The notes beneath the pieces are model-generated. The model saw only the letters and a program-made list of their open reading frames with translations, searched no databases and was not told the DNA's origin. A DNA stretch of 47,886 bases from a virus, in IMG/VR virus record IMGVR_UViG_3300035390_000028, positions 1-47,886 of that record; one strand, given 5' to 3'. How positions within the stretch are numbered: position 1 is the stretch's first letter; every line of letters begins with the position of its first letter. Of this stretch, positions 3,002 through 47,886 are shown piece after piece. The position numbers and the translations under genes were made by a program.

Positions 3002-3175
3002 AATTAGCATTTTGTATATAAATAAAAAAGACTACCATTTCTTGTAAATGAAGTTAATAATAATAGAATACAAAAACTCAATAATGACATTTTCACTAGA
3101 TATGTTAATACAGAGTTTGCTAGGAATTTAGTTGATATTCCTACTAAAAATTAGGATATAAGAATAAGAATTAAA

Positions 3176-3212
3176 AAAAAAGACCAATCTTTAATTAAAG
3201 ATTGGTCTTTTT
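3176..3212 (+). terminator. Intrinsic terminator
   Basis: A perfect hairpin (AAAAAGACCAATCTTTA paired with its complement) has runs of A before and T after, so it can terminate on both strands. In the DNA from 3002 to 3175 I see only a short open reading remnant of about 36 codons ending near 3155, with no clear start. Confidence 0.75.
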
Positions 3213-3463
3213 CATGAATTTAATTTAATAACTATCATATATAGAAACACATAAGTAAGGAAATATAACTTATATAGAAGTTATATGGGTTTAAGGGTTG
3301 TTTTACATCATTGTACTACACTGCACTACATATAGCGTAGTTTGTTTTTGAAAACCTACCACTTGCACTATATCTTTTTTATTGGTATACTGAAAAAAAT
3401 TAGAGGAATTAATACATTTTATAAAAACAAGTATTAAGAAAGTTCTATTTAAGGAGTTAAAGT

Positions 3464-8591: not shown

Positions 8592-9530
8592 TTAATTTGA
8601 TGTTACTCCATCCTCTAAGTTTAAAACCTCTCCCATTAATAAATACGTATTAAAAATTAAAGCTTTTGCTTCTTCAAAAGTTACATCAGAATGAATACCA
8701 TTACAAACTCTTTCATATAAATTTGACAAATTTTGACGCAATCTATCTTTTCGAGTTTTACTTGTAATCTTTGTATCAATATAAACATTAATTCGATTTT
8801 TAGCATTTTTCTTTTGTAATTTTAGTTCATTTCCATTAATTGTAATGGTTTCATCACTTGGAGGAAAAATAAAATCAGCAAAAGTATCAATTATTCTTCT
8901 ACATGATGATAGAGCTTGGCTAATTGATTCTGAATCTTTTTCTTGTAATCTATCCATTACTGATGGTAACATTTCAATAACATCCTTTGCTTCTTTGGTA
9001 ATTGATTTATCAATATCTTGTTTATATTTTTCAAAAATAGAGTCGATAACCTTTTCATAAGTAATAGAATAGTAAACGTCAGTAATATAATCATGAAGAA
9101 TAGAAAAAACACTACCTTTAATACCAGATAAATGTGAAATTATTATTCCTATTTTGTTAATGCTATTAGTAACACCATAATTAACTAAAATTGCATCATT
9201 ACCACTTGAATCTGTAGTTCTATAACATAAAAGTTTTTTTTCATTTACTTTTATCAATGTTTCAATTTGTACTAATGATTCAAAATATCCACTTGAGTGT
9301 TCTTCATTAGTCCATCTTTTCGTTTGTTCCATATAATCTTCAGAAATAGAACCGTTATCATATCCTCGCAACTCATAATCAATCCATTCCTCAATATCAT
9401 TATCTTTCTCTGGTCTAAGACGTAATAACCTTTTTGTTTTTAATAATATTTTTTCTCCAGTTATTCTATCTAATTCAATATCAGCCAGAATTTCCTTTGT
9501 AAATTCTAATATTTCTTCTTGTTTTTTCAT
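8592..9530 (-). CDS. AbiTii-like abortive-infection protein
   Basis: A 312-residue protein. Residues 1-60 match my memory of the AbiTii N-terminal domain: a helix with EILADIELDRI, a kinase-like spacing of Leu/Lys, then EEWIDYELRGY. Residues 200-305 are helical with SCRRIIDTFADFIFPP and RVCNGIHSDVTFEEA, like the C-terminal domain in several abortive-infection proteins. The family is linked to phage exclusion. AGGAGAGAGAA precedes the ATG. It sits in a cassette with a membrane protein and two DUF285-repeat proteins inside the prophage, so it probably defends the lysogen against other phages. The domain call is by eye. Confidence 0.6.
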   Translation of the reverse strand: MKKQEEILEFTKEILADIELDRITGEKILLKTKRLLRLRPEKDNDIEEWIDYELRGYDNGSISEDYMEQTKRWTNEEHSSGYFESLVQIETLIKVNEKKLLCYRTTDSSGNDAILVNYGVTNSINKIGIIISHLSGIKGSVFSILHDYITDVYYSITYEKVIDSIFEKYKQDIDKSITKEAKDVIEMLPSVMDRLQEKDSESISQALSSCRRIIDTFADFIFPPSDETITINGNELKLQKKNAKNRINVYIDTKITSKTRKDRLRQNLSNLYERVCNGIHSDVTFEEAKALIFNTYLLMGEVLNLEDGVTSN

Positions 9531-10008: not shown

Positions 10009-11352
10009 CTATTTATCATCTTCGGGTTTGTTAGCCCAGTGAGTAATACTTCCATTAAATTCAGAATCAGTAAATATATCACTCATATCAGTTACATTAG
10101 AAACATCCCAGTGAGAAATATTTCTATTAAATTCAGAATAATTAAACATAGAATTCATATCATTTACTTTTGAAACATTCCAACGCGAAATATCTCCATT
10201 GAATTCAGATGACATAAACATAAAATTCATATTAGTAACTTGAGAAACATCCCAATCAGAAATATCACCATTAAATATTGTTGCAGCAAACATAAAACTC
10301 ATATCAATTACTTGAGAAACATCCCACTTAGAAATATCACTATTATTTTGAGAGTAACAAAATAGACAACTCATATCAGTAACTTTAGAAACATCCCATT
10401 TAGAAATATCTCCATTGAATTCAGAGGAATAGAACATACTATTCATATCAGTAACTTTAGAAACATCCCACTTAGAAATATCTCCATTAAATTCAGAGCT
10501 ATCGAACATACTATTCATATCAGTAACTTGAGAAACATCCCACTTAGAAATATCTCCATTAAATTCAGAGCTATCGAACATACTATTCATATCAGTAACT
10601 TTAGAAACATCCCACTCAGAAATATCTCCATTAAAAGAAGATTCTTGGAACAATAATTTCATATCTGATACATTAGAAACATCCCATTTAGAAATATCTC
10701 CATTGAAAGAAGATTCCCAAAACATATAACGCATATTAGTAACTTGAGAAACATCCCAATCAGAAATATCACCATTAAATATTGTTAAACAAAACACCCC
10801 AGAGATATCAATAACATTAGAAACATCCCATTTAGAAATATCCCCATTGAAAGGAGAATCACAAAATATCCAACTAATATCATTAACATTAGAAACATCC
10901 CATTTAGAAATATCTCCATTGAAAAGGGATTCATTAAACATTCCTTGCATATCAGTAACATTTGAAACATCCCATTTAGAAATATCTCCATTGAAAAAAG
11001 AAAAATAAAACATACTATTCATATCGGTAACATTTGAAACATTCCATTTAGAAATATCTCCATCGAATCTTGAACAAAAAAACATTTTATGCATATCGGT
11101 AACATTAGAAACATCCCAATAAGAAATATTTCCATAGAAATAAGATTGACTAAACAACTCACTCATATCAGTAATATTAGAAACATCAATATAATTTAAA
11201 TCAACTTTATTTCCATTTTCTTCAATAGCCTGAGATATATATGTTTGTAATTCTTCTTTTGTTTGTGGAACTACTCTACTAACCCCAAAGATGAAACTTG
11301 GTAATACAAAACCAAGTAATATTAAAATCAACAGTACTTTTTTCTTATTCAT
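10009..11352 (-). CDS. Secreted BspA-family (DUF285) repeat protein
   Basis: About 447 residues, starting at the ATG at 11352 because GGGAGAG precedes it. The N-terminus is a signal peptide (KKK then LLILILLGFVLPSFIFG). The rest is about 15 repeats of 24 residues with consensus FNGDISKWDVSNVTDM..MF, typical of BspA-type leucine-rich surface proteins. There is no sortase or membrane anchor at the C-terminus. Two repeats at 10467-10610 are identical at the DNA level except for one base, so the array changes length. It heads the minus-strand cassette with the Abi genes; a lysogenic-conversion adhesin is likely. Confidence 0.8.
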   Translation of the reverse strand: MNKKKVLLILILLGFVLPSFIFGVSRVVPQTKEELQTYISQAIEENGNKVDLNYIDVSNITDMSELFSQSYFYGNISYWDVSNVTDMHKMFFCSRFDGDISKWNVSNVTDMNSMFYFSFFNGDISKWDVSNVTDMQGMFNESLFNGDISKWDVSNVNDISWIFCDSPFNGDISKWDVSNVIDISGVFCLTIFNGDISDWDVSQVTNMRYMFWESSFNGDISKWDVSNVSDMKLLFQESSFNGDISEWDVSKVTDMNSMFDSSEFNGDISKWDVSQVTDMNSMFDSSEFNGDISKWDVSKVTDMNSMFYSSEFNGDISKWDVSKVTDMSCLFCYSQNNSDISKWDVSQVIDMSFMFAATIFNGDISDWDVSQVTNMNFMFMSSEFNGDISRWNVSKVNDMNSMFNYSEFNRNISHWDVSNVTDMSDIFTDSEFNGSITHWANKPEDDK

Positions 11353-11427
11353 TTTATCTCTCCCTAATTTATTCATAAATACTACAACTATTAGGTAACT
11401 AAGTCAAAAGAAATATCTCTCTTAACA

Positions 11428-33460: not shown

Positions 33461-33905
33461 TACAGATTTCATTCTTTGAAAAGCATAAATTGTTCAGTCC
33501 TTCGTAAGATTCCAACTTACTACTATGACCTCGGCTGACTACTAATCTTGCATACCTCATGGGCTTGTCTTTAGTTTTGGTCGATATTGCAGACTCTCAG
33601 ACACATACGATTAGTCCTCTCATGTTAAGTTTGATAGCTTCTTAATCTCATGTAGCCATTTGCTTTACTCAATATACTCTCAGAATGGACTTTATCAAAT
33701 TAAGCTAACTTATCCATATATTAAGCCTAAACAAATTTCTATACGTTGGCTCAAGACCTCGCCTCCAGCTTCCTTCACACGTAGCTTCACAGTAACGCAC
33801 TTGCTCTTGGCTAGCGATTATAACTACATCTTTCCAGTAGCTCCGAGTACACGCAGTGGGATTGCACCACCTAGTTATCAAACATGCATGACAACCAAAA
33901 AGTAA
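33461..33905 (-). other. GC-rich relic resembling part of a group II intron
   Basis: This block is clearly higher in GC than both neighbours and has no intact gene. On the minus strand it reads GGTGCAATCCCA, GTGTACTCGGAGC, GTGAAGGAAGCTGGAGGCG and later a short frame with RYARLVVSRGHSSK. Those strings resemble the RNA domain I and pre-maturase regions of bacterial group II introns as I remember them. There is no reverse-transcriptase gene, so it would be a truncated copy. I am not certain; a remnant of another mobile element is possible. Confidence 0.35.
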
Positions 33906-33906
33906 A

Positions 33907-33936
33907 GTTGCCAAATATTATAAAATAATTGGCAAC
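33907..33936 (-). terminator. Terminator of the cas operon
   Basis: GTTGCCAA...TTGGCAAC dyad about 15 bases after the csy4 stop in the minus direction, followed on that strand by TTTACTTTTT. It ends the six-gene cas operon. Confidence 0.6.
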
Positions 33937-33951
33937 TTCTATAGAAGGATT

Positions 33952-34539
33952 CTAAAAACAAGGAACAGTTGCGTCTTTTGAAAGTCCGTAACTATTAAAT
34001 AATCCATCTCTAAATTCTGATTTTTCCTGCTTTATGTACAATATGTAGTAATTACTATTGCTATTACTTTTCAATCTTACAAAAGGCAGGTTATTATCTT
34101 TTTCTTCATAATTAACATACAAATCACATGCTTCATCATATTCAATATTATGACGCTTAGAATATCTTCTAACTAATTTTTCTTTGTTGTCCTTTATCTG
34201 AACTCTAGAAAAATTAACAAATCCGATTTCTGAAGGCACATCTCTTATTTTTGTAATATGAATATAATCCAACAACTTTGATAATCTACTCGTTAAACCA
34301 ACTTTCTCAAATTGAATTTCTGATAGATAAAAGATTCTTATTTTATCACCTAAAGTAAAATTATCAAGACAATATTTAGGGAATGAAATAGCTACATTGG
34401 ATTCCCCTTTACATTTTAATTCTGAAAATATTTTATGCAATTCTTCATACACTTTACATAATAAAAAATCTGTACTAATTTCCTCAGAAGATATCAATGT
34501 AATTTCTTGGTAAAAATTAAACTTATTTTGAGACTTCAC
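33952..34539 (-). CDS. cas6f: Type I-F crRNA endonuclease Cas6f (Csy4)
   Basis: About 195 residues, starting at the GTG at 34539 because the GGGGAGG ribosome site lies 9 bases upstream; an in-frame GTG at 34548 is too close to it. It cleaves the repeat RNA and stays bound to the hairpin. EELHKIF holds the catalytic His (residue 35 from this start), followed by NVAISFPKY. The C-terminus YGLSKDATVPCF is the conserved Cas6f ending. It overlaps csy3 by 17 bases. Confidence 0.9.
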   Translation of the reverse strand: MKSQNKFNFYQEITLISSEEISTDFLLCKVYEELHKIFSELKCKGESNVAISFPKYCLDNFTLGDKIRIFYLSEIQFEKVGLTSRLSKLLDYIHITKIRDVPSEIGFVNFSRVQIKDNKEKLVRRYSKRHNIEYDEACDLYVNYEEKDNNLPFVRLKSNSNSNYYILYIKQEKSEFRDGLFNSYGLSKDATVPCF

Positions 34540-35548
34540 CAAAAACACCTCCCCTAATTATCATTGCGATTGAATAATTAGCTTCTTCGGTATTATTAAA
34601 TACAGAATTTCCGGTTGCTTTGTCAAATACAGTATAAAAATCTATTTTAGTTGCTGGACTTCTGTAAGCCCTTCCTAAGTTAGTAACAGAACCATAAGTT
34701 TCTATAGCAATTGGAGTATTTAATTCTTCATACTCATCAAACCAGGTATCAATTGTTCTAAGAGCATTACCAATTTTTTGAGAATGCATTCCAGCAACTC
34801 CATCGATAGAGAATAATATTTTACTTTTCTTACCTTTATTACTACTGCTACTGCTCTTATCAAGAACCAATTCTTCACTAGGATAAACATCTTGAGCTTC
34901 GCCCATTTTTACATATGCATCAATTTTTAAATTTAAGAAATCACTATCACTAGCAAGAGCAGATGCAATCATTTTACCTAGTTCTTTAACATCCTTATTA
35001 TCAGAATCAAAATTCCTAATACTAAAGTCAAAAGCGTTAAAGATCCATTCTTTTCCTTTTCTCTCTTCTTTTACATGAATTTCAATAGCATCAGTTCCTA
35101 CTCTATTTCTCCACAAGAATCGTCCGTTAGCAATATTAATTGCATATCTTAAACCAAGTTCATCAAAACCTATTTCAGATTGGAATGTATCAATTAATTT
35201 TTCATAACGTTTTAGAAAAGCTTTATCATTACAAGATGAAGGAGTTTTAATATTTCCTAAAACCTTCAAAGTAAAAAACATATGCAATGTATCGAAACCG
35301 ATAGGTAAGTTACAAGCATCTACTATCTGTAAATTTGCATTTTGTATCATCTTATCAAGTTTTGCAGGATCGGTTGCATCACCTTTTTTCAATCTATTTG
35401 AAATTGTACCCTTAATTGATTTAGCAATTATTTTTAGAGGAACGTTATTTTCAATTTTATTTCCCCATTTTGAAGCGAACATAATACCATTGGATGGTAC
35501 CAATTTTTTTTCATAAGCTAATACTGATGGTAAAGTAATTTTTGCCAT
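34523..35548 (-). CDS. cas7f: Type I-F Cas7f (Csy3), crRNA backbone subunit
   Basis: A 341-residue protein, the size of characterised Csy3 (about 342). It polymerises along the spacer part of crRNA. Recognisable segments are LPSVLAYEKKLVPSNGIMFA at the start, FTLKVLGNIKTPSSCNDKAF, and LRYAINIANGRFLWRNRVGT. It lies between csy2 (12-base gap) and csy4 (overlap), the standard order. Confidence 0.92.
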   Translation of the reverse strand: MAKITLPSVLAYEKKLVPSNGIMFASKWGNKIENNVPLKIIAKSIKGTISNRLKKGDATDPAKLDKMIQNANLQIVDACNLPIGFDTLHMFFTLKVLGNIKTPSSCNDKAFLKRYEKLIDTFQSEIGFDELGLRYAINIANGRFLWRNRVGTDAIEIHVKEERKGKEWIFNAFDFSIRNFDSDNKDVKELGKMIASALASDSDFLNLKIDAYVKMGEAQDVYPSEELVLDKSSSSSNKGKKSKILFSIDGVAGMHSQKIGNALRTIDTWFDEYEELNTPIAIETYGSVTNLGRAYRSPATKIDFYTVFDKATGNSVFNNTEEANYSIAMIIRGGVFGEVSK

Positions 35549-35560
35549 TTTATTTCTCCT

Positions 35561-36439
35561 CTATTTACAAATATATAAATTATTTATTTCGTCATATTCA
35601 TATTGCCATAACATTTGATCTATAGAATCTAATCTGTAGGGCATTACAAACTCACCTAAAGTAACTATTGCTTCAGCAAATCTATGTAGATAATCATTAT
35701 TACGTTGATTCTCAACATGCTTTAACTCATCAAGACCTTGATATCCAACTGAAATTGGAACAAACCAGCCATTACTAAGTTTCTTGCTTCTACTCCATTC
35801 AACTACTTCCTTTTCATCAATTTCGGCCTTTGTATTTACCTGAATAAATGATATTACAGAATCAAAAGCATTGATTGAATTTTGTATCATGTCGTTTTCA
35901 ATTAAAGATTTTCGATTTATTATAGAAAAGCCCTTGTTCAAACTTCTTAAGAATTTTTTATCATCATTTTCCGAATTATCATCAATTCTTTTTAAGAATA
36001 CATTCTTGTAAGAAATAATATTTCCACTAGCAATTTTCATCCTAGAATGTAATAAAGTCTCAACATCTTCAATAAATTGAGACTCTTTTAATTTTCTAAC
36101 ACCATCATATTCAATCAACAATGAAACTTCTAAATTACATAGAGGTTCCTCTATAAATGAATCGGTTTTCCCTGTTCCTAATAATGGATGTCGTTTTTCA
36201 ATAACTGACAAGTTTGAATAAAACAACTGAGAATCTTTATACACTCTTAAATCAAAATCATTGCAAATTATACCAATTTTATTTAACTTCAAATCAGTAT
36301 ATTCATCACTTAATTCCCTCTGTAATCTATGCATAAAGCCTAAAAACGACGTAATAGCAGGAAATCCAACAGTATATGGTGATGAAAAGGCATTTGCCTC
36401 TTCGATTTTTACATTTGTAATTGTTAAATATTTTTTCAT
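35561..36439 (-). CDS. cas5f: Type I-F Cas5f (Csy2)
   Basis: A 292-residue subunit that binds the 5' crRNA handle together with Cas8f. Conserved segments are YTVGFPAITSFLGFMHRLQR, RHPLLGTGKTDSFIEEP, and the C-terminal FAEAIVTLGEFVMPYRLD. Its ATG overlaps the csy1 stop (ATGA), a translational coupling. Confidence 0.9.
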   Translation of the reverse strand: MKKYLTITNVKIEEANAFSSPYTVGFPAITSFLGFMHRLQRELSDEYTDLKLNKIGIICNDFDLRVYKDSQLFYSNLSVIEKRHPLLGTGKTDSFIEEPLCNLEVSLLIEYDGVRKLKESQFIEDVETLLHSRMKIASGNIISYKNVFLKRIDDNSENDDKKFLRSLNKGFSIINRKSLIENDMIQNSINAFDSVISFIQVNTKAEIDEKEVVEWSRSKKLSNGWFVPISVGYQGLDELKHVENQRNNDYLHRFAEAIVTLGEFVMPYRLDSIDQMLWQYEYDEINNLYICK

Positions 36440-37815
36440 GAAAGAACCTCCATATTTTCGTTTAACAATTCATTAATAAAGGTAATTTCTAAATCACCCA
36501 ATATATAATGGTCTTCAAATTTAAATTTCTTAAAACTAAAAACAATCCATCTTGCAATCATAGAAATAAACTGAGATATATCTGTAGACAAATCTCTTTC
36601 ATCTTCATATTTTGAATCTAATATTTTTTTCTGATATTCCGGCAAACTGGCGTATCTTTCACCTTCACTCCAACCTGGTTCAACTGCTCTTATTGATTGA
36701 ACCTTTTCAATTATTTTATCAAATATATTAAAAATAACTGAATCACGATAATCACGTATATTTTGATTATTATAATTTATACTAAATACATCGTGTAGAC
36801 TTTTAAAATTACCACGGTAATTATTAAAATATAGACTCTCCCTAAAAAAATCATAATGAGGTAATCTTACATTACGTTTTTTTAAGATTGGAGGAAGTGA
36901 AGAAAACATATAAGCAGTACTATTAATTGAATTTAAATATGATATATTTTGTTTCTTAGTTCCACCAAATCCAATTTCAACAACATCATAAATATCATGA
37001 ATTTCTACATCTGAATATTTGTTTTTCTTTTTTGCCTCTCTTACTAATTTTGCTTCATCAGAAAATTTATTATCAAGAATGTTTTTTTTCAAATAGAATA
37101 ATTGATCAGATGGGTATAAAATTGATAGCAAATGATAATCTTCATAGCCAATTGGAAAAAAAACCTGTTTCAATTTATTATCTGTTTGAGTAATATTTTC
37201 ACTATGTTTAATGCTTAATATTGCTTCTTTAATCTCACTATAAGATAATCTTAGATGTGCAAAATTTGATTTTGCACACTCATCATCCATCTTAAAATGC
37301 TCTAAAAGAGTTTTATCATCTTCCAATTTTAGATAAAGAAATTTAACATATCCTAATAATGCAGCATTAACCGAAACATCTTCTTGAACTGGTCCACAAT
37401 TGCCTGATCTAATGTAACCGTCATTTCTAGCTTCATTAGTTGCCCATAAGTTAATTGGTGCACTAATTTTCGAATTAGTATATTTGCAACAATGTGAGCA
37501 GAAAATAATTTTTTCATTTAGTGTTTTAAGTATTTTAGGTAAATATTCATTTATAAAATAAATCAAGTTTTTTTCAATTGTAATATCAACAATATCTTTA
37601 TTCTCTAAATCTTCAACTTTTAAGTTTACACCTAACCAAGTCTTTACTGAATCTATCTTAGAATCTTGATTAATCTTAATTGATAATTCAGTAGTAATCT
37701 TTTTTTCTGAATCATTTTTTAAAATTTTCTCTTTTTCTTTAATATAACTATTTGTACTTTTATTTATTTCATTTCTTGCTTTATCAACAAAATATTCTCT
37801 TAAATTATTATCCAA
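36436..37815 (-). CDS. cas8f: Type I-F Cas8f (Csy1), PAM-recognising large subunit
   Basis: A 459-residue subunit that reads the PAM and opens the target. The start is a TTG at 37815, 5 bases after AGGAGGT, which lies in the end of cas2-3. The segment LWATNEARNDGYIRSGNCGPVQED and the C-terminal ARWIVFSFKKFKF match Csy1. A CSHCC motif at about residue 105 could bind zinc. Confidence 0.85.
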   Translation of the reverse strand: MDNNLREYFVDKARNEINKSTNSYIKEKEKILKNDSEKKITTELSIKINQDSKIDSVKTWLGVNLKVEDLENKDIVDITIEKNLIYFINEYLPKILKTLNEKIIFCSHCCKYTNSKISAPINLWATNEARNDGYIRSGNCGPVQEDVSVNAALLGYVKFLYLKLEDDKTLLEHFKMDDECAKSNFAHLRLSYSEIKEAILSIKHSENITQTDNKLKQVFFPIGYEDYHLLSILYPSDQLFYLKKNILDNKFSDEAKLVREAKKKNKYSDVEIHDIYDVVEIGFGGTKKQNISYLNSINSTAYMFSSLPPILKKRNVRLPHYDFFRESLYFNNYRGNFKSLHDVFSINYNNQNIRDYRDSVIFNIFDKIIEKVQSIRAVEPGWSEGERYASLPEYQKKILDSKYEDERDLSTDISQFISMIARWIVFSFKKFKFEDHYILGDLEITFINELLNENMEVLS

Positions 37816-37818
37816 ATT

Positions 37819-40800
37819 TTACCTCCTATTTAATCCTAATCTTACTGAGTAAGAAAGAGCCTTTTTCTCCAATAAATAATTGGGGACTTCAATGAAGCTA
37901 TACACTCTTTCAACTTTATCACTACTCAAATTCATTCTTTCACAATAACTATCAATGACCTTTCTGTAATCAAGCTCTAGCCACATCTTTTCAGTTTTTT
38001 CATTTTCTATAAATTCAATATTATAAGTTTCATTCACAGCAATAAAATGCCCATAATCATCTCTTTCATAGAAGTTAAATTCATCTTCAGTATAGAAACA
38101 ATAAATCCTTTTATTATCTACCCCGTTTCTAAATCGTGCATATATCATAGGCAAACCTGTTAAAGCCCAAAAACCTTTATAGTATCCATTTAAATTCTCA
38201 GGACCAAATCCATCACCTTCATTCAGTAAAGAATATTTAATTGATTCATGCTCAATATTTATTAAACTATTATTATGATTGAATTCACTATTTTGCTTCA
38301 ATCTTGGTATAGAATTAATACTTTTATTCAATTCCTTATTATCAATAATCTCATACATATTATGTGATGATAATTTATAGTCTTTTCCTTGTTCGTAACC
38401 CGGCTTATTAAAAACAGCATTATCATCATTTTTTAAAGAATTCAAATTATATTGTAATATTGCAATATTAGAAGATTTGCATATTTTTTTTCTATGACGT
38501 AAAACTCTTCCTGCTAATTGTATTATTGATCTTACAGAAGATGGTTCAACAATTGCCCAATCAAAGTCATGATCTCTACCCACCTCTTCAATTGGGGATG
38601 AAATAATCATGAAAATAATGTTATCTTTTTTCGATCTATCAATGTGAGACCTTATAGTATTATCAGTAAAACAAAAGGTATCTACTTCATCCTTTCGGTA
38701 AAGAACCTTATCAAGATAATTTTCAATTTCATTTCTAACAAGAAGTATATTTCTACTGTGATAGCATAGATAAAATATGTCTGTATCATCACAATTATAA
38801 TTATTTAGACTTCCTGCAAAATCAATACAATTATCAATATGTGCAAATCTAACTAAACCAAATGAAATACATTTGTTACTTTTAGCATCAATTACATTAT
38901 TGGATTTATGAAGTACTATTGAAGATTCAATCATTTTATATAAAACTTCTTCTTTAGAATCATCTAGACTAAAATCAATTAAAGTTCCTTTTCTCTTTAT
39001 TCCATTTTTAGCCTCTTCATCTTGCAAAGATACAATTCTTTTATTAATGAACTTTTGATATTTATCCTCAAACACTTTAAGATCTTTAGGTTCTTTAAAT
39101 ACAGAATTAGAAAATTCATCTACAAAGCAAGTAATTATGGGACTAAGGCTTTTATTATATGCATTTTTAACAGCCCAACCTTCTGAATAAGCTTTATAAT
39201 AACCTTTTGAAATACTAGGAGTAATTGTTGCTGAAGATATCAATACCCGTCGTCCCAACATACCAGCTAGATATACCAAATGAGCTATTGCAATCAAATC
39301 ATCAAATACAAAATCGTCTATCTCATCAATAATTAAATCACTTGTTGAAAGTCTCAAAAAAGGTACAATCCACCTCCCACCAAGATAATTTTCACTTGCA
39401 GGAATTAGATGATCTATTGTGCTTACACACAGTGGAGCACAGAGGAATTTCATATCTTTATCTGATTTAATAACAGTAGATAAAGCTACATCTGAAATAA
39501 TATTACCATAATCTATATCATCAAATGATGATAAATCAAAAACGGATTCATTCTTTTCTAAATTATGTAATTTATCAATGGCACTTGATCCTATTACAAC
39601 CGCTAAATCTGTATTATCAATATGCATTTTATTACGATACATATCACCTGTTTGTAAAGTCAAACTTCTTAACCCCAAAGCTATATTAAACCTTACATCT
39701 TCTTCTTTACTAGATATTGCATTTAATATTTTTGCATTTGCAAAAGTTTTACCAGTACCTGTTGAAGCTAAATTAACGCAAAAAAAGCCATTTTCTTTCT
39801 TGTCTTCATCCTCAATATTCTTTAACTTTGCAGCAATTTTATCTTGCCAATAAAACTTAGAATCTTTGTTAGATTTTTTAGTGAGGGCTTTAGCATTTTC
39901 CAAACCGAGTAGTTGTGAGGAACTCTTATTGACTGTATAAATTGCCTGTAGAGCTTCTTTTTCTACTCCTAATAAGTGTTCTTCTAAAAATTGTTTTACT
40001 TTACCTTTATGCTCTCTATCGCTACAAGTATTTGCATATAATTTTAGCTTGCATGTATATTTTTCATCTTTATCTTTTGAAGAAAAATAATAATCACCCA
40101 GCATTAAATACAATCTAGCTTTTTTTACAAGCAGAAATAGCACTCTCTCATCATCTATAGATTCAAATAAATCTAATTGATTTAATAATTTATTACTCCA
40201 TTTTTTTACTTCTTTTGTCCATCGATCAGAAAAATTTATGCCGTTAGAAAATGAATTAATATATTCTTTATCATTTGTTTTATGATAACCCCATCCATCA
40301 TCAATTAGTTGGAATAATTCCTTCCAATTATCAATACCTTCACCTAGGTATTCTTTATCTTTTTTTTCTGATTTTATAAAAGGCATTCTATGATGAGATA
40401 TTATCAAATATGAAATAATAAGAACTAAATTTGAAAATTGAGATTTATCACTTTTGATATTAATACCTTTTTCTTTTAATAAAGAAGACTGTTTTATTAA
40501 CACCTCATCAAATTCAGGTGATGCAAAATCAGATAACCATGGTTTATCATCGTTATTTTTAATAAACGATTGAAACATAAACATTGATATATATTCATGT
40601 CTTATGATATCGGATTTCTTTTTATTCTTTAACATACCCTGAAATCCATCAGAAGCTTTTCCTAAATCATGAAATAATGCAGAAAGAGCAACAATACATT
40701 TAATTAATGGTAGATAATGGTCTTTATTTTCCCACTCATTATGTAAAAGATTTTTAGAGGTAGTAGCAATCGGTACAATTCCTTCTACTGTATATTTAAG

Positions 40801-41037
40801 CTTACTACCAACAATCCATAATAATTCAGATTCTTTTATTTTATGAAGCCAATGACAGGCCACAGAAGTATTCTTGGAAGCAGTCTTGCATAGATGAGCC
40901 TTTACAACCTTAAGGCCCTCTAAAGTGATGTTAGTTTTCCATGTTGTGGGACCTATTCTATTAGCATACATATCCAATACTTGAGCAGTCTTTAGTCTAG
41001 ATTTTTTTTCACTTAAAGAAATAAATACTACAATCAT
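37819..41037 (-). CDS. cas2-3: Cas2-Cas3 fusion, helicase-nuclease of type I-F
   Basis: A 1072-residue fusion specific to type I-F: a Cas2 domain at residues 1-90 (integration), an HD nuclease (LFHDLGKA, His123-Asp124, later SHHRMP), and an SF2 helicase (Walker A STGTGKT at 425-431, DEID at 571-574, SSAT at 601-604, and QLAGRVLRHRK). It degrades targeted DNA and takes part in spacer acquisition with Cas1. All key motifs are intact. It starts 5 bases after cas1 and ends 3 bases before csy1. Confidence 0.95.
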   Translation of the reverse strand: MIVVFISLSEKKSRLKTAQVLDMYANRIGPTTWKTNITLEGLKVVKAHLCKTASKNTSVACHWLHKIKESELLWIVGSKLKYTVEGIVPIATTSKNLLHNEWENKDHYLPLIKCIVALSALFHDLGKASDGFQGMLKNKKKSDIIRHEYISMFMFQSFIKNNDDKPWLSDFASPEFDEVLIKQSSLLKEKGINIKSDKSQFSNLVLIISYLIISHHRMPFIKSEKKDKEYLGEGIDNWKELFQLIDDGWGYHKTNDKEYINSFSNGINFSDRWTKEVKKWSNKLLNQLDLFESIDDERVLFLLVKKARLYLMLGDYYFSSKDKDEKYTCKLKLYANTCSDREHKGKVKQFLEEHLLGVEKEALQAIYTVNKSSSQLLGLENAKALTKKSNKDSKFYWQDKIAAKLKNIEDEDKKENGFFCVNLASTGTGKTFANAKILNAISSKEEDVRFNIALGLRSLTLQTGDMYRNKMHIDNTDLAVVIGSSAIDKLHNLEKNESVFDLSSFDDIDYGNIISDVALSTVIKSDKDMKFLCAPLCVSTIDHLIPASENYLGGRWIVPFLRLSTSDLIIDEIDDFVFDDLIAIAHLVYLAGMLGRRVLISSATITPSISKGYYKAYSEGWAVKNAYNKSLSPIITCFVDEFSNSVFKEPKDLKVFEDKYQKFINKRIVSLQDEEAKNGIKRKGTLIDFSLDDSKEEVLYKMIESSIVLHKSNNVIDAKSNKCISFGLVRFAHIDNCIDFAGSLNNYNCDDTDIFYLCYHSRNILLVRNEIENYLDKVLYRKDEVDTFCFTDNTIRSHIDRSKKDNIIFMIISSPIEEVGRDHDFDWAIVEPSSVRSIIQLAGRVLRHRKKICKSSNIAILQYNLNSLKNDDNAVFNKPGYEQGKDYKLSSHNMYEIIDNKELNKSINSIPRLKQNSEFNHNNSLINIEHESIKYSLLNEGDGFGPENLNGYYKGFWALTGLPMIYARFRNGVDNKRIYCFYTEDEFNFYERDDYGHFIAVNETYNIEFIENEKTEKMWLELDYRKVIDSYCERMNLSSDKVERVYSFIEVPNYLLEKKALSYSVRLGLNRR

Positions 41038-41042
41038 AAATA

Positions 41043-42011
41043 CTACTTCCTTATTTGAGAAAATTCTTCTGCAATCAGTTGAACTGAATCAAACATGAAG
41101 TCTAAAACTTTGTAATCAGTAAACTTTTTAATACATTCACTTCGAAATAGTTCATCTTCAATAAAATCATCATAAGTACTAAATGCAAGGGGAAGAACAA
41201 CTGCATCTTTTATTAAATCAGCTACATCAAACACAAGAGCCCCTCTTCTTGTTTTTCCATGCATCAATGCAAAAGCAGGAGGAATTCCTAATGCCCATAA
41301 AGATAGAGAAGCCAACCCATATGCTAAATAGTTTCCATAATTCAAATTTTGATTTATCCTATCATTATTACTTCTATCACGTGAAAAATCTTTTATTTTA
41401 TTATGAATACATGCTATCCTATATAAAGATTTAGTAAATTTTGCTTCAGAAAGAAGTAAAGAATTAACATCACTTGCACTTGCTATAGACTTTCTAAAGA
41501 TTCTAATGATTTTTTCAACTTCAATAGAATCATTTTCAAAACCACATTTTCTAAACAAGTTATCTTTAGAATAAACTTTATCAATAAAATCTAAACGAAG
41601 ATATTGAAATTTCTTGGCAGCTAGTAGTCTAATTTCATTATCGTACCAGAATGAAACCCATTGCTGTAAAAACTGAGTTGGTCTATATTCATTTTTCGAA
41701 CTAACCCACTCTATATCTGTACCAGCAATTAAAGGGGTACCATTGCTACCAGAAAAACCTAGCATAACTCCTGCAGATGATAGATATCTTACTGCAGCTT
41801 GTGTAATAGATGTACCTGTACCAAGCAGAATTACTGTGGTATTTGCTATTGGTATATTATAGTAAAAGAACTTATTTTTTACTTGAGTTAGATATGTAAC
41901 CCTACCATCTTTAACCAATATTCTGCATTTTTCTAAGTAATAGATATTTGTTCTTTTCGAATAAAGTATTGCTTTTAAATCTTTTGATTGTAGCTGTTCT
42001 TCATAATTCAT
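41043..42011 (-). CDS. cas1: Type I-F Cas1 integrase
   Basis: A 322-residue protein that catalyses spacer integration at the leader-proximal repeat. Conserved LGTGTSITQAAVRYLSSAGV, then LSLWALGIPPAFALMHGKTRRGALVFDVADLIKDAVVLPLAF, which holds the His and Asp of the metal site. It is the first gene of the cas operon. The array is upstream and transcribed toward it. Confidence 0.95.
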   Translation of the reverse strand: MNYEEQLQSKDLKAILYSKRTNIYYLEKCRILVKDGRVTYLTQVKNKFFYYNIPIANTTVILLGTGTSITQAAVRYLSSAGVMLGFSGSNGTPLIAGTDIEWVSSKNEYRPTQFLQQWVSFWYDNEIRLLAAKKFQYLRLDFIDKVYSKDNLFRKCGFENDSIEVEKIIRIFRKSIASASDVNSLLLSEAKFTKSLYRIACIHNKIKDFSRDRSNNDRINQNLNYGNYLAYGLASLSLWALGIPPAFALMHGKTRRGALVFDVADLIKDAVVLPLAFSTYDDFIEDELFRSECIKKFTDYKVLDFMFDSVQLIAEEFSQIRK

Positions 42012-42386
42012 AATAAAATATTATTGCATTAAATATGCTTATTAGCTAGTTAATTTATTATTTATATCTTAGTAGTTTAAAAACATCTATTAAGAAACAT
42101 AAAACCCGTAATATGTGTAAATATTATAAGTTATATTTGTTATAATAATTTATTTATTTCTGCATTTAAGTATTTTTTTTCAATTCAAATTTATTTTTTC
42201 TTTCAGAAACTGAGCTATTCTACGTCTATATCTAAAGATGTTTTAGAAATCCAAGATATTTTGTCACCTAAAATCTATTCATCCATGAATTTACCTTATT
42301 GCCTCAACATAACTATAATAACAATTGAGAAGTTATCACAATTATATGAAAAAAAATATATAAGGAAAATTATATTGCTGTAATGA
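42012..42386 (-). promoter_or_regulatory. Intergenic region between array trailer and cas1
   Basis: I see no gene. It is very AT-rich. The cas operon promoter must be here unless crRNA transcription reads through from the array, which runs in the same direction; I could not fix -35/-10 boxes with confidence. Confidence 0.4.
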
Positions 42387-45300
42387 TGTCTAAGTTGCCT
42401 ATTCGGCAGATAACTTATAATGGACGATTGGGAAGAATTCATAAGCTCTTTAAGCTGCCTATTCGGCAGATAACTATCTTGGCATTTCATTTTTCCCAAA
42501 TTAGTATCTCTAACCTGCCTATTCGGCAGATAACGGTTTATCCTTGGGCTACGTGTTAACGCTGAGTCTCAAAGCTGCCTATTCAGCAGATAACTTATGT
42601 TCTGATGATTACGGGTGGGACAATGATCTCTAAGCTGCCTAATCGGCAGATAACTAGATAGTAGAAAAAAATGGAATTTTGGAAAATCTCTAAGCTGCCT
42701 ATTCGGCAGATAACCAATTAAAATGTATAGTGAGGATATTTCACGATCTCTAAGCTGCCTATTCGGCAGATAACTTGTAGATGGTGAACTAGATTTAACT
42801 TTAAAATCTCTAAGCTGCCTATTCGGCAGATAACATATAAATATTTTTTTATCTATATAATCTTATTTCTCTAAGCTGCCTATTCGGCAGATAAGGTGCT
42901 TCCATCTCTGCTAATGCAAATTCAGCTTCTCTAAGCTGCCTATTCGGCAGATAACTTCTGGAGCTCTCCAAGTCTTTTAAGTCCTGCTCTCTAAGCTGCC
43001 TATCCGGCAGATAACCTAAGTATCTCGGTGGTCATAGTGATGTTATTTCTCTAAGCTGCCTATCCGGCAGATAACATTGGGACGCTATCGTCCTTGGTGC
43101 ATTGGCTTCTCTAAGCTGCCTATCCGGCAGATAACACTTACTCCAGGAAAAAAAGGGTAACTATCATTCTCTAAGCTGCCTATCCGGCAGATAACCGCCC
43201 GTAACCTCAATTATTTGCTTGCCTTTTTCTCTAAGCTGCCTATCCGGCAGATAACTAATTCCCTTGCTTCTATAGGGTGTGTCTTAGTCTCTAAGCTGCC
43301 TATCCGGCAGATAACCTGTGGAAATCTTAGAGATACATTCGATTACTTCTCTAAGCTGCCTATCCGGCAGATAACATATTCCATATCTTGCAGTTGATAG
43401 ACAAGTTTCTCTAAGCTGCCTATCCGGCAGATAACCAATTGTATCTCAGATTATTAAACTACATTCATCTCTAAGCTGCCTATCCGGCAGATAACGATAC
43501 TACTTTAAATCTTGATTTTACTTATGATCTCTAAGCTGCCTATCCGGCAGATAACATGTAGGTAATGATCCTTATTTTGGTGCAGATTCTCTAAGCTGCC
43601 TATCCGGCAGATAACTTAACATTCATAAACCCTTTGCGAACGTGCACTCTCTAAGCTGCCTATCCGGCAGATAACTGGGAACGGGGGACGCATATACGGT
43701 TTTTTTGGTCTCTAAGCTGCCTATCCGGCAGATAACATCCTAAAACTGTTAATGATAGAATCATTGGTTCTCTAAGCTGCCTATCCGGCAGATAACTTTT
43801 TAAAAGCTAAAGGTTATCCAATTTCTATTCTCTAAGCTGCCTATCCGGCAGATAACCAATTAAAGATGATGTTATGCTCGATTTTCAATCTCTAAGCTGC
43901 CTATCCGGCAGATAACTATTATGGATTCATTGGACTTTGTTTTCAATTTCTCTAAGCTGCCTATCCGGCAGATAACACACACCCCACTACTAGCTTTTTT
44001 ATTTCAAACTCTCTAAGCTGCCTATCCGGCAGATAACAGGCTTACTAAGTGTAAGTTTAAAGAAAGATTTCTCTAAGCTGCCTATCCGGCAGATAACTGT
44101 CAATAATGCCACGTTCTGCATACCAACAGTCTCTAAGCTGCCTATCCGGCAGATAACACTAATAGACCATAATTAAGGAGACCTTAAATTCTCTAAGCTG
44201 CCTATCCGGCAGATAACATTTACGAGATACTTTCGATTATTGGCATCTATCTCGAAGCTGCCTATCCGGCAGATAACATTGGATCAGGTGGAAAAGTCAC
44301 TTTTGTAAATCTCTAAGCTGCCTATCCGGCAGATAACATGGCTCGAAAGAAATGCAAGGGCAGGGGTTATCTCTAAGCTGCCTATCCGGCAGATAACTTT
44401 TACTATCAATTAATGAGAATGATTTAAAATCTCTAAGCTGCCTATCCGGCAGATAACAAGACGTTTGTAATACTTCCGAGATAATAACTTCTCTAAGCTG
44501 CCTATCCGGCAGATAACGTGTCCTCTTTTGGACACTATTTTTTGTTTAATCTCTAAGCTGCCTATCCGGCAGATAACTTCTGTTTAACTAAATAAACACC
44601 CCCCCTAAATCTCTAAGCTGCCTATCCGGCAGATAACGATACAGTTGATTTCTTTGAACCTTGGGAGCGGTCTCTAAGCTGCCTATCCGGCAGATAACCA
44701 ACATTTGCTTGACATTTCTCATAGCGACTATCTCTAAGCTGCCTATCCGGCAGATAACTTATCTCCGGGAACCATTTCTTCACACATGGTATCTCTAAGC
44801 TGCCTATCCGGCAGATAACTACCAATTGCGGTACTTCTTGGATTCCAACGATCTCTAAGCTGCCTATCCGGCAGATAACTTGTTAACATTGTTTGTCCTT
44901 GTGCTCCGCACTCTCTAAGCTGCCTATCCGGCAGATAACACCATGTTCATGTAATGTATCAATATCTTCAATCTCTAAGCTGCCTATCCGGCAGATAACA
45001 AGACGTTTGTAATACTTCTGAGATAATAACTTCTCTAAGCTGCCTATCCGGCAGATAACCAATATTCCCAACAACTTAATTTGCCTCATATTCTCTAAGC
45101 TGCCTATCCGGCAGATAACGATAAGCCAGAAACCGCATTAACTCCGTGGAGTTCTCTAAGCTGCCTATCCGGCAGATAACATATAAGGCGTATACAGAGC
45201 CTAAACTTGAATTCTCTAAGCTGCCTATCCGGCAGATAACTATGATGATTTTATGAATTATAAAGAATTTGATCTCTAAGCTGCCTATCCGGCAGATAAC

Positions 45301-45901
45301 CCTCATGTATGGAGTAAAGTTTCCGTCAAGATTCTCTAAGCTGCCTATCCGGCAGATAACGCTCGTTTGTTTATATCTTCCCTCATATAAGGTCTCTAAG
45401 CTGCCTATCCGGCAGATAACCCAGGTATTATCACATATAGTTATAAGATTATTCTCTAAGCTGCCTATCCGGCAGATAACAACCTGGGGATTTAATAAAC
45501 ATGACTTTGATTTCTCTAAGCTGCCTATCCGGCAGATAACATAGGTTCATATTGTTTCCTTGTGCTCCGCACTCTCTAAGCTGCCTATCCGGCAGATAAC
45601 ACTTGTAAATGAATACAACTCATTAAGAGTTTTCTCTAAGCTGCCTATCCGGCAGATAACTCATACCACGTTGAATAAGCCAAGCTTGAAAATCTCTAAG
45701 CTGCCTATCCGGCAGATAACGATTACAAGTTATAAAGGACTCATTTAACAGATCTCTAAGCTGCCTATCCGGCAGATAACTTACCACCCTTCTCACTCAT
45801 GTCAAAAGGAATGTCTCTAAGCTGCCTATCCGGCAGATAACTAAATTATGAATAGGATCTAACGCAACGTAGTTCTCTAAGCTGCCTATCCGGCAGATAA
45901 C
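42387..45901 (-). CRISPR. Type I-F CRISPR array, 59 repeats and 58 spacers
   Basis: The 28-base repeat, read on the minus strand, has stem CTGCC-GGATA-GGCAG and ends with handle CTTAGAGA, like I-F repeats. Fifty-one spacers are 32 bases and seven are 33 (numbers 8, 22, 27, 38, 40, 46 and 57 counted from the low-coordinate end). Transcription is on the minus strand: repeat orientation, degenerate repeats at the low-coordinate end, and PAM placement of two spacer matches all agree. Repeats 1-10 carry TATTCGG (or worse) in plus-strand reading; repeats 11-59 carry TATCCGG. Repeat 9 ends with G and repeat 32 has TCTCGAAG. Open frames through this region are artefacts of the repeat. Confidence 0.98.
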
Positions 45902-46370
45902 ACAAAAAAAATTAGACTAATTATTTATATAGTATAAATATATGTGTATTTTCTTGAAAAATACAATCTTTTTTTATAATTTTTTTAATAAATATTGAAA
46001 CAATATATTTATATATCCAGAAAGAAATTAAATTTAATTAAAAAAAACAAAGACAACAAGCATAAAATATTCCTATTTTCTAAGAACAAGATAAGTTTAA
46101 TTAAAATTTGATACACAAGGTAGTTTTTAATAGTTACGATAAAATATTCAATAAAATATATTTTCAGAATTATTTACTCTGCTATTTCATTCAAATTATA
46201 TATCATAATCAAATAAAATAATAAACTAATTTTGTTATTGCTAATTAATTTTAGTAAATCAAAAAGACTATTATTTAAAATATACAAATTACATCATACA
46301 ATACAAAAAAAACTCCTAGTAATTTAATATTAAAGTTTTTTAGCTATTGAATTTTGCTTCCTAGTTGTTA
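45902..46370 (-). promoter_or_regulatory. CRISPR leader region
   Basis: It holds no gene. Very AT-rich, it directly abuts the repeat at 45874-45901, which is clean like the others near it, as expected for the leader end. On the minus strand TATACTATATAA lies about 40 bases before the first repeat and could be the crRNA promoter -10. Confidence 0.65.
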
Positions 46371-47849
46371 TTAATCTTCAATTTGCCAAAACAGATTAAC
46401 TTCAACATTTTTCTCTACTTGTTTTATTGTAGATGTTCCTGAATGCAACTTAATAATCTGAGATACAATTGCAAGTCCAAGGCCATTACCACCACTGGTT
46501 CTACTCTTGTCTCCTCTTTCCCACGGTTCAAAGAAATCAACTGTATCATCAATTGTACCAGGGTTTGTAACAACTATATTGTTTTCTTTAATAGTTACTT
46601 CTACACCCTCTTTTGAGACCTCTAGTGCATTATCAAGTAATTCTTTTATAGCAAGTTTCATGGTTGTGAAATCGCAATAAATCTCATCACTTTCTATGTT
46701 GAATTTAACTGTTTTGTATTTAATGTTTGATCTAATTAAATCATCAACGAGTACTCGAGATTCAGTTGCTTGAGGTATTATTGCTTTTTCAGGACTCTGC
46801 AATGATGAATATAATACAACTCTATTTATCTTATTAGATAGATCTTGTTGTTCATTTTTCAGTGTTTTAACGGTTTGTTGGTTAAGAGGAAATATTCCAT
46901 CTTCCATTCCACTAAGCAAAAGATTCATTGATGTTATTGGAGTATTTAAATCATGTGTGATTGAATTCAGCCAAGCTTTTCTGTTCTTTCTGTTTGCAGC
47001 AAGAGATTCATCAAGGCTATGAATTGATTCAATAATCTCTTGATATTCTTCAATCTTATTGTGACTTGATAGCTCTAGATTTTCTTTTCCTAGTGCTAAT
47101 TTATTAAGGGAATCTTTTATCTCTGTTATTGATTTTTGACTTATCTTACTTATTCTGTAACTCATTATAAAAGCAATCAATAAGGCAATCATAAAACAAA
47201 TACTCAACCATTTTGCTGCTTGTCTCATTATCATTGAAGTTGCAGCATATGTGGATGGACTGTAGTTTAGTACATCAACACTAAATGCATATTGACCGCG
47301 AAGAAGTACTATCAAACTACCGCCAATGAATTTCTCTTTAATCATTGGAGGTACTTCAAGATTTCTTGTATCTGTATCTTTTTTAGCTACAACTTGCAGT
47401 GTTACTTTATCATCTGTTAGGTTTAGTATATTTACCCTATCTCTAACAGCAATTGTTACAAATTCACTTTCATCAAGATCTTGTCCCTTTAAAAGTTTTG
47501 TTGTTGTATTTGGTTCTGATGATTGTATTTGTGCTAACTTTTCACCTAGTTGAGTAACACCTAGAGAATAGATTATTTTATCATTTGGCCCTCTAAATAA
47601 AAGACCAGAAATTCTCTTATCGGATAATGCTGCTGAATCTGTTATTTGAATAAATTTGCCAAAACTCATCTCACCTTGTGCATTTGAAACAGAAGAAGCT
47701 ACCTTCTGGCTAAATGTTTCAAAGCTTTGTTCGACCCAATCATTTGTAGCGGAATTATAGAACAAACTTATTGAAGCGATTATAAATAAAATTATAATCA
47801 CTGCAACGCTTATTATTGATAAAAATGTTCTAAAAAATAGTTTTCGCAT
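46371..47849 (-). CDS. Membrane sensor histidine kinase
   Basis: About 492 residues. I choose the ATG at 47849; an in-frame TTG at 47864 overlaps the upstream gene and lies too near AGGAG. Numbered from the longer TTG form: a membrane segment at about 11-34, an extracytoplasmic sensor to 215, a second membrane segment near 218-236, a linker, the H-box THDLNTPI with His304, the N-box LLDNALEVS (Asn412), the F-box FFEPW (444-448) and the G-box GNGLGLAIVS. It is the partner of the regulator whose end overlaps the window edge. Two array spacers match it. Confidence 0.9.
   Translation of the reverse strand: MRKLFFRTFLSIISVAVIIILFIIASISLFYNSATNDWVEQSFETFSQKVASSVSNAQGEMSFGKFIQITDSAALSDKRISGLLFRGPNDKIIYSLGVTQLGEKLAQIQSSEPNTTTKLLKGQDLDESEFVTIAVRDRVNILNLTDDKVTLQVVAKKDTDTRNLEVPPMIKEKFIGGSLIVLLRGQYAFSVDVLNYSPSTYAATSMIMRQAAKWLSICFMIALLIAFIMSYRISKISQKSITEIKDSLNKLALGKENLELSSHNKIEEYQEIIESIHSLDESLAANRKNRKAWLNSITHDLNTPITSMNLLLSGMEDGIFPLNQQTVKTLKNEQQDLSNKINRVVLYSSLQSPEKAIIPQATESRVLVDDLIRSNIKYKTVKFNIESDEIYCDFTTMKLAIKELLDNALEVSKEGVEVTIKENNIVVTNPGTIDDTVDFFEPWERGDKSRTSGGNGLGLAIVSQIIKLHSGTSTIKQVEKNVEVNLFWQIED
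46440..46471 (+). other. Protospacer-like site for spacer 18
   Basis: Matches spacer 18 (43436-43467) at 29 of 32 bases, in the sensor-kinase G-box coding sequence. CC lies immediately 5' (46438-46439), the type I-F PAM. The mismatches are at crRNA positions 7, 9 and 10. All three are silent in the kinase frame. Confidence 0.9.
46515..46547 (+). other. Protospacer-like site for spacer 38
   Basis: Matches spacer 38 (44638-44670) at 29 of 33 bases, in the F-box coding sequence. CC lies immediately 5' (46513-46514). The mismatches are at crRNA positions 1, 3, 4 and 10. All four are silent in the kinase frame. Confidence 0.92.
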
Positions 47850-47853
47850 CAAC

Positions 47854-47886
47854 TTATTCTTCAACTCCTACAAATCTATAACCATA
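47854..47886 (-). CDS. C-terminus of an OmpR-type response regulator (partial)
   Basis: Ten codons reading YGYRFVGVEE then stop, cut by the window edge. YGYRF is the usual ending of the winged-helix domain in OmpR-family regulators. Its stop falls a few bases before the kinase ATG (47849), so the two form an operon. Confidence 0.75.
   Translation of the reverse strand, partial: YGYRFVGVEE

Follow-up and report, generated by a model that had tools for sequence, protein, structure and literature searches.

Two spacers of a spirochaete type I-F CRISPR array match the adjacent histidine kinase gene with silent, PAM-proximal differences

How does a complete CRISPR-Cas locus come to carry two spacers that nearly match a conserved gene lying just beside it? 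The question is raised by the window, i.e. the whole stretch of DNA analysed here, an IMG/VR contig of 47,886 bases in which spirochaete host DNA lies to the right of a tailed prophage (1 to ~33.4-33.9 kb; integrase, terminase, portal, head protease, major head protein and tape measure). All six type I-F (I-F1) cas genes are found by Pfam matches in a single operon of this host DNA (33952-42011), on the minus strand: cas1 (41043..42011), a cas2-3 fusion with Cas2 domain, HD and helicase (37819..41037), csy1 (cas8f; 36436..37815), csy2 (cas5f; 35561..36439), csy3 (cas7f; 34523..35548) and csy4 (cas6f; 33952..34548). The CRISPR array (42387..45901, minus strand) is composed of 59 repeats (GTTATCTGCCGGATAGGCAGCTTAGAGA) and 58 spacers, and its 28-nt repeats and 32-33-nt spacers are of type I-F format. 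The leader end of the array is on the right; degenerate repeats are confined to the leader-distal left end. Between repeat 1 and the 3' end of the kinase gene, an AT-rich leader/intergenic region (45902..46370) leaves a gap of only ~0.5 kb. Such loci are scarce among spirochaetes, type I-F having been encountered in 3 of 393 sampled genomes.

At the junction between prophage and cas operon lies the 5' part of a group II intron (33497-33894; Rfam RF01998 and RF02001). A second record, IMGVR_UViG_3300035389_000048, has positions 1-33894 of the window in common at 99.997% identity, and then continues from the same intron end into different host genes, which are preceded by a different terminator hairpin. 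Two explanations are possible: the prophage or intron is present at two loci, or one of the two assemblies is chimeric at 33894.

The gene beside the array encodes a sensor histidine kinase of 497 aa (46371..47864, minus strand; HisKA and HATPase_c by Pfam). The last codons of a response regulator (...YGYRFVGVEE*) are visible at the right edge of the window, and the same regulator is found directly upstream of the nearest kinase in GTDB genomes, that of a Spirochaetaceae MAG (L002; 60% protein identity). At E<=1e-60, the kinase is present in 71 of the 139 genomes of the family. The sole apparent duplicate among these genomes, in G080, was discarded as a redundant contig end. The kinase is thus a conserved, ordinary chromosomal gene of this spirochaete family, and not mobile cargo. 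It is apparently a single-copy orthologue and, with one conserved, chromosomal copy per genome, a paralogue is unlikely to have been the source of the spacers.

The two spacers concerned, counted from the leader, are S41 (32 nt; 43436..43467, minus strand) and S21 (33 nt; 44638..44670, minus strand), numbered 18 and 38 in the initial annotation. S41 matches positions 46440..46471 (plus strand) with three mismatches, next to a CC PAM at 46438-46439, and S21 matches positions 46515..46547 (plus strand) with four mismatches, next to a CC PAM at 46513-46514. CC immediately 5' of the match is the type I-F PAM, and it is present at both targets, which are the only two known in all. Both guides are antisense to the kinase mRNA, and the targets lie 0.54-0.65 kb from the array. 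Nothing within 8 mismatches was found for the other spacers anywhere in the 47.9 kb window, and a chance origin of the S41 and S21 matches is ruled out by a reversed-sequence control, whose best match had 9 mismatches. Translated spacers were also compared with the prophage and the surroundings of the kinase in L002, and the kinase alone rose above shuffled controls. Neither spacer has the full match to the resident genome that would define it as self-targeting, as there are 3 and 4 mismatches to the resident gene, all of them PAM-proximal.

These seven differences had been described in the initial annotation as all synonymous, and a recount agrees: they amount to 7 nt spread over five codons, namely AAG/AAA and TTG/CTA (two bases) for S41, and CCG/CCT, GAA/GAG and AGA/CGG (two bases) for S21. 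The peptides encoded on the minus strand by the two stretches, IVSQIIKLHS and DTVDFFEPWER respectively, are unchanged in the translated comparison. As a random substitution in these codons is silent ~20% of the time, the probability of seven silent changes out of seven is ~1e-5. This indicates that purifying selection was acting on the kinase orthologue encoded by the captured DNA, and that this orthologue was functional. The earlier proposal of a targeted kinase copy that had diverged silently is well supported.

The differences are also unevenly placed along the guides. They occupy guide positions 7, 9 and 10 in S41 and 1, 3, 4 and 10 in S21, i.e. all seven fall in the PAM-proximal 10 nt, and the other 45 guide positions match perfectly. 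A codon-level permutation gives P = 0.0014 for this clustering in the seed, or P = 0.005 when survival is taken to demand one or more seed mismatches in each target, values that are suggestive only, as the test was picked after the data had been seen. In the type I-F system of Pectobacterium, chromosomal targeting is prevented when the PAM is mutated and can be weaker when the seed contains a mismatch (PMC3630108). Given such effects and the seed mismatches found here, the resident kinase would be expected to remain uncut, i.e. to be spared from interference by S41 and S21.

Each acquisition copies the leader-proximal repeat, so that the age of a repeat gives the time available for divergence after capture. 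Repeats 21-41, which lie between and around both spacers, carry a single change in 588 nt, whereas the 65 nt of the targets carry 7 (Fisher P ~5e-7). With array repeats so little drifted, the differences must be older than the capture, and the source was already a diverged allele. Outgroup kinases allow some of the codons to be polarised. The stretch reads CCT TGG GAA AGA in L002, L007 and L008 and CCA TGG GAA AGA in L009, at 37-60% protein identity, a distance at which polarity is weak for silent sites. On this basis, the resident sequence, CCG TGG GAA AGA, has retained ancestral Glu and Arg codons, CCG being derived on the resident side, and the spacer sequence, CCT TGG GAG CGG, has retained the ancestral Pro codon, GAG and CGG being derived. 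CGG represents 1% of the 107 Arg codons of the cas genes and none of the 17 Arg codons of the kinase. The codon polarity would thus fit, if weakly, two diverged orthologues and speak against a mutational escape of the resident gene.

The position of the two spacers in the array adds a relative chronology. S41 predates S21 by 20 acquisitions and 20 more came after S21; neither of the two is an exact match to the resident kinase. In Pectobacterium, a truly self-targeting type I-F spacer is nearly always the most recent one in its array, and chromosome-like foreign DNA can drive acquisition from homologous genes (PMC5059440). A genuine self match would thus be expected to kill the cell or to be the final addition to the array. 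During type I-F priming, new spacers cluster near the first target (PMC4117759). If S41 had primed on the resident gene, S21 would match the latter exactly, which argues that S21, too, was taken from the allele of a sister lineage. S21 lies on the strand and side that are less favoured for direct priming by S41, although that strand also receives spacers. As this primed strand receives acquisitions to either side of the priming site, the location of S21 is compatible with priming by S41, which is therefore possible.

The explanation that we favour, with a probability of roughly 0.72, is that S41 and S21 were copied from a sister lineage's kinase allele carried on incoming DNA. The source is best taken to be the chromosome of a relative, which would have arrived by transformation, transduction or conjugation. 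It is weakened by the absence of the source allele from GTDB genomes, IMG/VR and plasmids, the nearest kinase having 60% protein identity. Sister-lineage kinase DNA would have entered the cell, and spacers would have been taken from it by the usual rule, i.e. next to a CC PAM and with a length of 32-33 nt. As purifying selection keeps the protein constant, the resident and captured alleles would differ silently only. Each difference lying in or beside the guide seed, the resident gene would escape cutting, the spacers would be tolerated and the cell would go on acquiring further ones. S41 would later have recognised sister DNA again, and S21 would have been added nearby, by primed or targeted acquisition. 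Once both were in place, the two spacers could act as a barrier to, or an editor of, incoming sister-lineage DNA at the kinase locus.

Alternatively, the spacers could have been taken from the cell's own kinase, the resident allele having later been swapped by homologous recombination for a silent variant, to the rescue of the cell from autoimmunity. We consider this unlikely. It would account for the confinement of all mismatches to the PAM-proximal 10 nt, and type I-F self-acquisition does occur at a low, constant rate, with the CRISPR-Cas region among the affected chromosomal sites (PMC5059440). However, the Glu and Arg codons that match the outgroups are those of the resident gene, not those of the spacer, and one PAM or seed change would have sufficed. 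Moreover, S41 and S21 lie 20 acquisitions apart. A matching resident allele should already have been lost to the first self match by the time of the second capture, so that two rescues would be needed. Both options, incoming DNA of a relative or replacement of the resident by a silent escape variant, had been left side by side in the initial annotation. The undrifted repeats, the outgroup polarity and the array order now favour the former, and the ancestral GAA AGA and the need for two rescues make the latter less likely.

The captured copy could also have resided on a phage, a plasmid or an integrative element instead of the chromosome of a relative, transduced chromosomal DNA being counted here under the favoured explanation. 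Mobile DNA is the usual origin of spacers, and the presence of the prophage at window positions 1 to ~33.4 kb makes transduction of adjoining host DNA possible. The searches nevertheless make a mobile copy quite improbable. IMG/VR contained neither a relative of the kinase nor a coding variant of IVSQIIKLHS, and plasmid matches were generic histidine kinases only, all at <60% identity. A mobile-element copy matching the spacers, which had been named earlier as the sign of incoming DNA, is thus absent from IMG/VR and plasmids. In addition, the kinase is chromosomal across the family, and a contig with the same prophage lacks the kinase.

It is very improbable that the contig is a composite of two co-occurring strains, one providing the array and the other the kinase, in which case the spacers might match the kinase of a neighbour strain and the "resident" kinase would not be resident at all. 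The contig is derived from a metagenome, and the prophage joins two host contexts at the group II intron in two assemblies. However, the cas operon separates the array from the junction at 33894, and the stretch 33895-47886 is continuous through cas genes, array, leader and kinase, with no repeat boundary at the leader. Finally, the view that the spacers started as exact self matches, the kinase gaining silent mutations later by escape or drift, would suit changes that are silent only and concentrated in the seed, but it is close to refuted by the near-unchanged repeats around the spacers (1/588 nt compared with 7/65), and seven changes far exceed what escape needs, two of the three polarisable codons having changed on the spacer side.

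The rest of the array was searched as well. Spacers S1-S50 had no match among phage records, and two chosen spacers had none in IMG/VR. When all spacers were compared with the 139 family genomes, the kinase was the sole convincing match. Genome matches of S51 were set aside as AT-rich low complexity. S25 shares a 22-nt central match with a beta-CASP RNase-like gene of the nearest relative, G001 (L052; G001:C46, ~858-889). This match was also set aside, with 6 mismatches, no CC PAM and non-silent changes; S25 is perhaps a further chromosomal spacer, or the match is due to chance.

Two pairs of spacers resemble each other within the array. S24 (44458-44489) and S15 (45000-45031) contain the same protospacer twice, with a single difference, TCG/TCA, which is silent in the frame VIISEVLQTS. 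A second target is thus sampled in two silently different versions; the first 28 nt of this target are unmatched in IMG/VR. S6 (45541-45572) and S17 (44880-44911) have their first 16 nt in common (GTGCGGAGCACAAGGA) and then diverge, as if they were derived from two variants of one gene.

What is most unusual about the locus is how close the targets are to their own array, a feature reported for virus-borne mini-arrays. If 58 spacers were drawn at random over the 2.4 Mb chromosome of a relative, ~0.04 would be expected in the visible 1.5 kb. With two found, the neighbourhood of the array looks favoured as a target, although the two kinase matches may represent one event plus priming. Targeting of the flank does not seem to be a general habit of such loci, as no near-match was found at two other spirochaete type I-F loci: 33 spacers of G078 had no match with up to 8 mismatches in 39 kb of flank, and 48 spacers of G270 had none with up to 9 mismatches in 38 kb of flank.

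In virus-borne mini-arrays, spacers target genes located near the array in relatives, the copy of the carrier being mutated, and this proximity is described as unexplained (PMC6858448). The mini-arrays of SPV1, SPV2 and phages (PMC6858448) resemble the present locus in that genes near the array are targeted and the carrier's copy is protected by mutations. They are however devoid of cas genes and carried by viruses, whereas the locus described here is a 58-spacer array with cas genes, outside the prophage and beside a chromosomal gene. A similar arrangement was observed on a Mu-like phage contig (L061; IMGVR_UViG_3300045972_000158), where a cas-less type I-F mini-array of three repeats (3094-3237) lies between two genes. 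Its two spacers near-match these flanking genes, with 3 mismatches (3007-3038) and 7 mismatches (3401-3432), and the phage's own copies have no CC PAM.

Likenesses to cellular systems are also found. In Escherichia coli, remnant type I-F arrays have spacers against cas genes of the locus to which they belong (PMC2886076), and the CRISPR3 "anti-CRISPR" spacers are, as here, chromosomal spacers against an alternative allele at their own locus. In that case, cas genes are targeted in strains lacking cas, whereas here cas genes are intact and a neighbouring housekeeping gene is targeted. The Pectobacterium type I-F system (PMC4117759; PMC5059440) has in common with this locus the CC/GG PAM, clustered acquisition and chromosome-like foreign DNA, but it was studied with laboratory plasmids, whereas the array here is natural and its donor unseen. 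In Haloferax volcanii, CRISPR targeting biases recombination towards the CRISPR-bearing strain (PMC12814878). Work cited there describes Haloferax spacers that were acquired from the chromosomes of relatives in the course of inter-species mating. As is proposed here, chromosomal DNA of a relative is targeted, with consequences for gene exchange; the system is however an archaeal type I-B one acting in cell-fusion mating, whereas the locus described here is a bacterial type I-F one and its target flanks the CRISPR locus. A type I-F3 CRISPR-associated transposon would also have guides matching an adjoining gene with mismatches at codon wobble positions. Unlike in such elements, cas1 and cas2-3 are present and the targets are 0.54-0.65 kb away from the array; as, furthermore, no match to TniQ/Tns transposition genes was found among the scanned ORFs of the window, this possibility was ruled out.

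The recombination bias in Haloferax (PMC12814878) and the own-locus targeting in E. coli (PMC2886076) make it conceivable that the CRISPR locus serves as a locus-retention or homing device against the sister allele of its flanking gene, a role that we regard as a long shot. The spacers would cut incoming or partner DNA lacking the locus and thereby bias recombination towards the CRISPR-bearing haplotype, and the linked resident allele would be immune through the silent differences in both seeds. Whatever its role, this chromosomal type I-F locus is complete and yet has the geometry of the mini-arrays; its target is a conserved gene, and silent seed differences tell self from sister.

As to the prophage itself, the motif ACACTTGTTACTTAGAAAA is found upstream of four of its structural genes (14593, 17607, 22095 and 25662, plus strand) and is probably a late promoter or regulatory motif. 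The prophage also encodes an AbiTii-domain protein and a large DUF285 repeat protein with 72-nt repeats (8592-9530 and 10009-11376), which could possibly be defence and surface cargo.
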